Shown here piece after piece: positions 22,934 to 24,385 of a stretch of 64,000 bases of DNA. Source of the stretch: Micromonospora sp. AMSO31t (GTDB taxonomy: Bacteria; Actinomycetota; Actinomycetes; Mycobacteriales; Micromonosporaceae); contig NZ_WBKT01000014.1 of assembly GCF_008868175.1 (NCBI RefSeq), forward strand, positions 1-64,000, written 5' to 3'. The notes beneath the pieces are model-generated. The model was not told where the DNA came from. It made no database searches and worked only from the letters and a program-made list of their open reading frames with translations. Each line of letters begins with the position of its first letter. Within the stretch, counting starts at the first letter, position 1. The position numbers and the translations under genes are program-made.

Positions 22934-23248
22934 TCAGTGGAAGAGCTTGAGGCCGACCACGCCGGCCACCACCAGCAGCAGGCAGGCGATCCGGGGCAGG
23001 CTGGCGGACTCGCCCAGCGCCACCATGCCGACCAGCGCCGTGCCGACCGCGCCGATGCCGACCCACATGGCGTAGCCGGTGCCCACCGGGATGTCGCGCA
23101 GCGCGTACGCCAGGCCGGCCATGCTCGCGACCAGCGAGACGGCGAAGACCACGGAGGGGAGCGGGCGGGTGAAGCCGGCGCTGCGGTCCAGCGCGATCGC
23201 CCAGGCGGTCTCCAGCAGTCCGGAGAGCACCAGCACGAGCCAGGCCAT
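22934..23248 (-). CDS. gdx: SMR-family guanidinium exporter (Gdx/SugE)
   Basis: Four-helix small multidrug-resistance protein of 104 aa that works as an antiparallel dimer, exchanging guanidinium for protons. The essential membrane Glu is in LSGLLETAWA (Glu13), and the sequence follows the SugE/Gdx subtype rather than EmrE: GYAMWVGIGAVGTALVGM and LGESASLPRIACL. The start at 23248 follows GAGGTGA. The clearest functional evidence is a guanidine-III riboswitch in the leader (23305-23345). Hence the gene is expected to be switched on when guanidine accumulates. Confidence 0.94.
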   Translation of the reverse strand: MAWLVLVLSGLLETAWAIALDRSAGFTRPLPSVVFAVSLVASMAGLAYALRDIPVGTGYAMWVGIGAVGTALVGMVALGESASLPRIACLLLVVAGVVGLKLFH

Positions 23249-23304
23249 GGGTCACCTCTGACGGGACGGGCCCGGCCGCGGGGGCCGGGACGGGCGGTCA
23301 CGCG

Positions 23305-23345
23305 GGGCGTCTTGGCCTGACCGGGTACGCCCACCACTCGTCCGG
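23305..23345 (-). ncRNA. Guanidine-III (ykkC-III) riboswitch aptamer
   Basis: Read on the minus strand, the 41-nt element begins CCGGACGAG, has a 6-bp stem GGGCGT/ACGCCC, and between its arms the loop ACCCGGTCAG followed by GCCAAG. These are the conserved parts of the guanidine-III pseudoknot: 5' CCGG pairs with CCGG in the loop, and CAAG contacts complete the triple-helical site. The spacing matches the Thermobifida fusca aptamer as I remember it. It ends 56 nt before the gdx start; a CCGGCC/GGCCGG hairpin and the ribosome site follow. Control is likely at translation. Confidence 0.93.
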
Positions 23346-23424
23346 GGCGGCACGGGGCCGCCGGATCCGACGCTAGCACCGCCGAGGCCGGCGGTCCGGC
23401 ACGGTGACGAACCCCACCATCGCT

Positions 23425-23452: not shown

Positions 23453-24385
23453 ATGGTCGGCATGACCGTGCTCTTCTCCGACGAGGACGTCGCCGCGGCC
23501 GTGGACGCCCCGCTCACCGTCGCCGCCATGCGGGACGCGCTGCTGGCCGCGCACGAGGGACGGCTCATCGCGCCGCCCCGGGCGTCCGCCCCGCTCGGCG
23601 GCGGCCGGATGGTGCTCACGGCCGGGCACCTCACCGGCGAGTGGTACGGCTTCCGCTCCTACGACACGTTCGGGCACCCGGAGAGCGGGCAGCTCGTGGT
23701 GCTGCACGACGCCACCACCGGGGCGGTACGCGCCATCGCCGTCGGCGAGGAGCTGGGCTCGCGGCGCACCGGGGGACTGGGCGGGGTGGCCGTGGACGCG
23801 CTGGCCCGCCCCGACGCGGCCACCCTCGGCGTGGTCGGGTCGGGCCGCCAGGCGTGGACCCAGGTGTGGGCCGCCGCCGCGGTCCGCCCGCTGCGCGAGG
23901 TGACCGTGCACAGCCGCTCGGCGGCCCGCCGGGAGGCGTTCGCCGCCCGGGTCCGGGCCGAGCTGGGCGTGCCGGCCCGCGCGGTCGACTCGGCCGCCGC
24001 GGCGGTGCGCGACCGGGACCTCGTGGTGCTCGCCACCACCAGCACCTGCCCGGTGCTGGACGCCGCCGACCTCGCCCCGGGCACCCACGTCAACACGGTC
24101 GGCTTCAAGCAGGTCGACCGGCACGAGTTCGGGCCGGACCTGCTGGACGCCGCCGACCTGCTGGTCACCGACTCGCCCGCCCAGGCGGCCGCGTACGCCC
24201 CGCCCATGCTCGCCGCCGTCGACCCGTACGCGGACCGGCTGCGCGACCTGGGCGCGGTGCTGGCCGGGGCGGTCCCGGGCCGGACCGGCGCGGACCAGAT
24301 CTCGGTCTTCTGCTCCACCGGCCTGGCCGGCACGGAGGTCTTCCTGCTCGACCGGCTGGCCCGGGTCGGCGCGGCGGCCCACTGA
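23453..24385 (+). CDS. Ornithine cyclodeaminase/mu-crystallin family protein
   Basis: NAD(P)-dependent enzyme of 310 aa. N-terminal dimerisation part, then a Rossmann fold with [16 protein letters not shown] (about 126-141) and the closing dinucleotide-site stretch. Family members are ornithine cyclodeaminases, alanine or opine dehydrogenases, ketimine reductases or siderophore/antibiotic-precursor synthases. The substrate Lys in the family (RAS..L position) is not obvious: [11 protein letters not shown] then MVLTAGHL. So catalysis as cyclodeaminase is doubtful. ATG 23453 follows AGG; ATG 23462 is an alternative. Divergent from gdx; possible link to guanidine or arginine metabolism is only positional. 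Confidence 0.85.

Follow-up and report, generated by a model that had tools for sequence, protein, structure and literature searches.

A guanidine-III riboswitch on the minus strand probably turns on the gene for a Gdx-type antiporter through competition between its aptamer and a downstream anti-aptamer strand; that the riboswitch belongs to this class and that the gene is of the Gdx exporter type is virtually certain. Across the window, by which we mean the whole 64-kb stretch of DNA analyzed here, guanidine-III (RF01763) was the sole match among 4227 Rfam families scanned (23366-23301, minus strand; 45.9 bits against a gathering cut-off of 36 bits; E 2.3e-6 for the window against all 4227 families). 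The match spans model positions 1-67, the full model length, and is a single copy in the 6.36-Mb genome (E 5.5e-8 in a whole-genome search). A preliminary description, made by reading the letters, had assigned the element to this class and asked for an Rfam search, which bears the assignment out; the match is longer than the interval given there because it includes a 5' hairpin.

Each aptamer part named in that description (CCGGACGAG, the GGGCGU/ACGCCC helix, the loop and CAAG) lies on the minus strand where it had been placed. The guanidine-III class folds as an H-type pseudoknot in which C6, G7 and G17 contact guanidinium, as seen in the T. fusca structure (PMC5696562), and the equivalents of all three are intact within 23345-23311, together with CCGGACGAG, ACCCGG and AAG. 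CCGGACGAG is invariant in an alignment of 65 Micromonospora leaders. The aptamer helix covaries: among 124 leaders its fourth pair is G-C in 66, U-A in 29, C-G in 20 and U-G in 7, with 2 unpaired, and pairing is thus kept in 122/124 through changes on both sides. By analogy with the class fold, pseudoknot pairing is expected between the CCGG of the 5' strand and that of the loop, creating the ligand site, a feature that the preliminary description does not mention; the two strands are present and complementary, and because both are invariant across the aligned leaders no covariation is possible for this helix.

Table 1. Features of the gdx leader and gene, in window coordinates, ordered from the promoter to the gene.
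Feature	Positions	Strand	Basis
Probable extended -10 promoter element TGCTAGCGT	23370..23378	-	conserved in genus
Guanidine-III aptamer including 5' hairpin	23301..23366	-	RF01763 full match
5' hairpin GGCGGC-CCCGU-GCCGCC, directly 5' of aptamer core	23346..23362	-	paired in Rfam consensus alignment; read directly
CCGGACGAG: 5' pseudoknot strand and ligand-binding strand, holding the C6 and G7 equivalents; strand A of proposed switch	23337..23345	-	read directly
Aptamer hairpin 5' arm GGGCGU, holding the G17 equivalent	23327..23332	-	read directly; covarying helix
Aptamer hairpin loop ACCCGGUCAG	23317..23326	-	read directly
Loop CCGG, 3' strand of pseudoknot helix	23321..23324	-	read directly; class fold (PMC5696562)
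CAAG	23311..23314	-	read directly
Aptamer hairpin 3' arm ACGCCC	23305..23310	-	read directly; covarying helix
Proposed anti-aptamer strand C, ACCGCCCGUCCCGG	23285..23298	-	complementary to aptamer 23345-23333
Platform hairpin 5' arm CCCGGCC, overlapping anti-aptamer strand	23283..23289	-	read directly; alignment
Platform hairpin 3' arm GGCCGGG (strand D)	23271..23277	-	read directly; folds
Shine-Dalgarno region AGAGGUGA	23252..23259	-	read directly; conserved in alignment
gdx (sugE), 104-aa Gdx-type SMR protein, predicted guanidinium exporter	22934..23248	-	PF00893; nearest structure Gdx-Clo

The gdx gene starts 52 nt 3' of the end of the RF01763 match, and its product belongs to the SMR family (Pfam PF00893, 80.5 bits against a cut-off of 23.7). 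The nearest solved structure is Gdx-Clo (6wk5; E 4.5e-23, 84.6 bits), with EmrE behind the Gdx-Clo chains at about 40 bits (E about 1e-9). The alignment to Gdx-Clo is ungapped over 102 aa and retains E13, W16, S42, Y59 and W62, the site described for that protein, in which W16 separates Gdx from Qac (PMC7695847); what differs is that the sequence here is actinobacterial. The best-scoring family for the product was the NCBIfam SugE equivalog NF008512, at 122.2 bits just under its cut-off of 126, and we therefore call the protein Gdx-type rather than a strict SugE equivalog. From its sequence it is predicted to be a Gdx-type guanidinium/proton antiporter, the pump activity of the family being taken from the literature. 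Its best named relatives are from Micromonospora species, at up to 95% identity (M. fulviviridis, M. chaiyaphumensis), and on that basis we assign the window to Micromonospora or something closely akin to it. The Gdx subtype with a membrane Glu proposed in the preliminary description is upheld, with Gdx-Clo as nearest structure and both E13 and W16 present, as is the observation made there that riboswitch and gene agree independently, the one by its Rfam model and the other by its nearest structure and diagnostic residues. The same genome holds a second SMR gene (L032, G000:C131:15354-15632), EmrE/Qac-like by eye and without a guanidine-III match. Downstream of gdx on the same strand, 22842-22603 encodes a 79-aa small membrane protein for which Pfam gives nothing and NCBIfam only a match below threshold.

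One earlier judgment fell: the expression platform, described as simple, has a 5' arm that can pair either with the hairpin 3' arm or with the 5' strand of the aptamer, and its complementarity to that aptamer strand is a conserved trait of the genus. In the 65 distinct Micromonospora leaders aligned, the spacer from aptamer to start codon measures 59-72 nt (counted from AAGACG), and the most strongly conserved part of it besides the Shine-Dalgarno is ACUCGUCCCGG, after which comes a hairpin partner. The motif CTCGTCC (CUCGUCC in RNA) is perfectly complementary to GGACGAG, an aptamer sequence that does not vary, and occurs in 44/65 of these spacers, where dinucleotide shuffles give 0.9 on average and never more than 4, many of the leaders being from close relatives, so that the counts are not independent events. 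In nearly all carriers its distance upstream of the start codon is 37-46 nt. Pairing with the aptamer strand is also energetically better than in shuffles (median z -1.7; 28 of the 65 leaders fall below 5%), and there is partial covariation at the variable positions flanking the core, aptamers with GAGUCG having CGACUCG in the spacer in 14/15 cases. This UCG class of aptamers reaches -21.1 kcal/mol with its own platforms against -17.5 with those of the UGG class; the UGG class, which is larger and includes the window, has almost no preference for its own. The clade of the window carries CCCGUCC, a weakened form with one mismatch to the aptamer, and pairing there is extended outward: ACCGCCCGUCCCGG can pair with aptamer positions 23345-23333 (CCGGACGAGUGGU) with one A-C and one C-C mismatch. 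At -18.7 kcal/mol this duplex is unexceptional when taken alone, 11% of shuffles being as good.

Because the hairpin 5' arm overlaps the anti-aptamer strand, the aptamer, the anti-aptamer duplex and the platform hairpin cannot all form at once; we infer that in the cell the two pairings are mutually exclusive. Elsewhere in the phylum, beyond Micromonosporaceae, matches to the motif fall mostly within coding sequence that follows a very short leader, and we therefore claim a distal platform for Micromonospora only. Our proposal for these leaders, a tentative one, is a genus-specific distal platform in which the anti-aptamer pairs with the ligand-binding strand (off) or with the hairpin arm (on), and in which the freed GCCGGGCC may cover the gdx start.

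Guanidine very probably acts as an ON signal, with both direction and ligand drawn by analogy from the literature. Guanidine III has been described as a translational ON switch that works via release of competing structures and so exposes the ribosome site, with a functional mechanism said to be less firmly known than in the case of guanidine I (PMC5696562). Rising free guanidine would place guanidinium in the pocket formed by the CCGG:CCGG pseudoknot and the GGGCGU/ACGCCC hairpin, and binding would hold CCGGACGAG, the 5' strand, within the aptamer. In the absence of ligand, CCGGACGAG would instead pair with the anti-aptamer ACCGCCCGUCCCGG, 37-50 nt upstream of the start codon, and the leader would be off; we lean slightly towards this duplex as the off form. 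With ligand, the freed anti-aptamer would be able to fold into the local hairpin CCCGGCC/GGCCGGG, and the ribosome site would remain available.

Two blocks are candidates for the off form, namely pairing of the start site by the freed hairpin arm and RNase cleavage of the unfolded leader. GCCGGGCC, comprising strand D and the next two bases, is complementary to GGCCUGGC, which runs from the gdx start codon to codon 4, and this pairing is used by the folds in both states. Selection on codon 2, considered as proof of the arm-start pairing, was rejected: the codon is GCC in 64/65 leaders and ranks 3 of 51 by entropy, and it gives no support because several other codons are equally fixed. Occlusion of the Shine-Dalgarno as the output of the switch was rejected as well, no consistent change emerging between free and bound-like folds of all leaders. 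Equilibrium folding gave no change in mean Shine-Dalgarno access with and without a blocked aptamer (0.40 versus 0.39), and folding also returned 0.54 in the off-like against 0.47 in the on-like state, which is the wrong direction.

This bears on a serious, if rather less probable, alternative in which the same riboswitch controls mRNA stability: the bound aptamer near the 5' end would block RNase E-like scanning, and the downstream hairpin would have no switching role. The lack of Shine-Dalgarno occlusion in the folds fits such control, and so does the promoter. TGNTANNNT is present upstream of the aptamer in all 65 of the Micromonospora regions, and the position of the probable -10 element puts the transcript start probably near 23363, just before the 5' hairpin. 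Guanidine III aptamers are moreover reported, in a review, as stabilizers against RNase E (PMC12186494). Control by stability leaves unexplained why the conserved spacer block CUCGUCC should complement the aptamer. Upstream of the probable -10 element, the window also contains a dyad, GGTGGGGTTCGTCACC (23403-23418), and GGTG-N8-CACC occurs in 44/65 of the regions upstream in Micromonospora, where mononucleotide shuffles give 0.4; the dyad is a possible operator between gdx and a divergent ornithine cyclodeaminase-family gene (23453-24385).

An intrinsic transcription terminator or attenuator might also be suggested by the platform hairpin CCCGGCC/GGCCGGG, which is strong, rich in G+C and set between aptamer and gene, but neither the window nor the aligned relatives have a run of at least four T after it, and folding of the aptamer would favor it, contrary to the known ON behavior, which makes this reading very improbable. 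Least likely of all is that the leader is a decayed aptamer that has lost guanidine sensing. Such decay does occur in the genus: seven Micromonospora genomes keep gdx without a match above the cut-off (L194-L200; G127, G151, G166, G180, G186, G204, G220), their aptamers degraded or absent. Three of these leaders (L194, L195, L199) hold a degraded aptamer with a recognizable or partial anti-aptamer; L197 has lost both aptamer and anti-aptamer but retains the hairpin 3' arm and ribosome site; and in L196, L198 and L200 promoter-like sequence adjoins the start codon. Only one decayed copy is still picked up by the model, at 24.7 bits, whereas the window scores 45.9 with every core nucleotide checked intact. 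Among these explanations, anti-aptamer competition is the best mechanism for the guanidine ON switch.

Guanidine-III riboswitches have already been described as chiefly actinobacterial and as accompanying efflux genes (PMC12186494). We found a match in 197/251 genomes in a search of Micromonosporaceae and in 51/396 genomes across the phylum. In other genera of the family the aptamer sometimes precedes a small CBU_0592-type membrane protein (NF047864) instead of gdx; L014 and L108 were assigned by that profile and nine further loci by eye (L013, L026, L089, L091, L093, L100, L102, L103, L106). Several of these loci have a start codon only about 15 nt past the aptamer, without a clear Shine-Dalgarno. 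At L017 and L112 the aptamer stands directly before a metallo-beta-lactamase-fold hydrolase (PF00753, tested for L017), and each of these two genomes has a second guanidine-III match. Outside the family, it precedes a membrane protein starting MELTFEAGGWW or MELTLEAGSWW (L207, L225) or a soluble protein with a PN.EG.WAQQAEA.L motif (L202, L213, L214).

The T. fusca guanidine-III riboswitch shares with the window the core CCGGACGAG, the hairpin with the G17 equivalent, the loop ACCCGG, CAAG, the class of gene partner and the expected ON behavior (PMC5696562). It ends 16 nt from the ribosome site (PMC5696562), whereas in the window the Shine-Dalgarno lies about 45 nt past the aptamer and, unlike in T. 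fusca, a hairpin with an anti-aptamer arm stands between the two. Short leaders of the Actinoplanes type have the same aptamer and gene, and some (L016, L025, L107, L146) contain the complement GACUCGUC, but their spacers do not exceed 30 nt and place it after the Shine-Dalgarno and before the AUG, rather than 37-46 nt before the start in spacers of 59-72 nt as in Micromonospora.

The riboswitch class and its partnership with this gene were already known, and the genus-specific detail of the platform adds to them. The analysis assigns, with good confidence, a function to the gene of a small membrane protein and to its leader. The conserved anti-aptamer offers a concrete, testable off-state for guanidine-III riboswitches, and the relatives with a decayed or deleted aptamer but an intact gdx provide ready-made natural comparisons.
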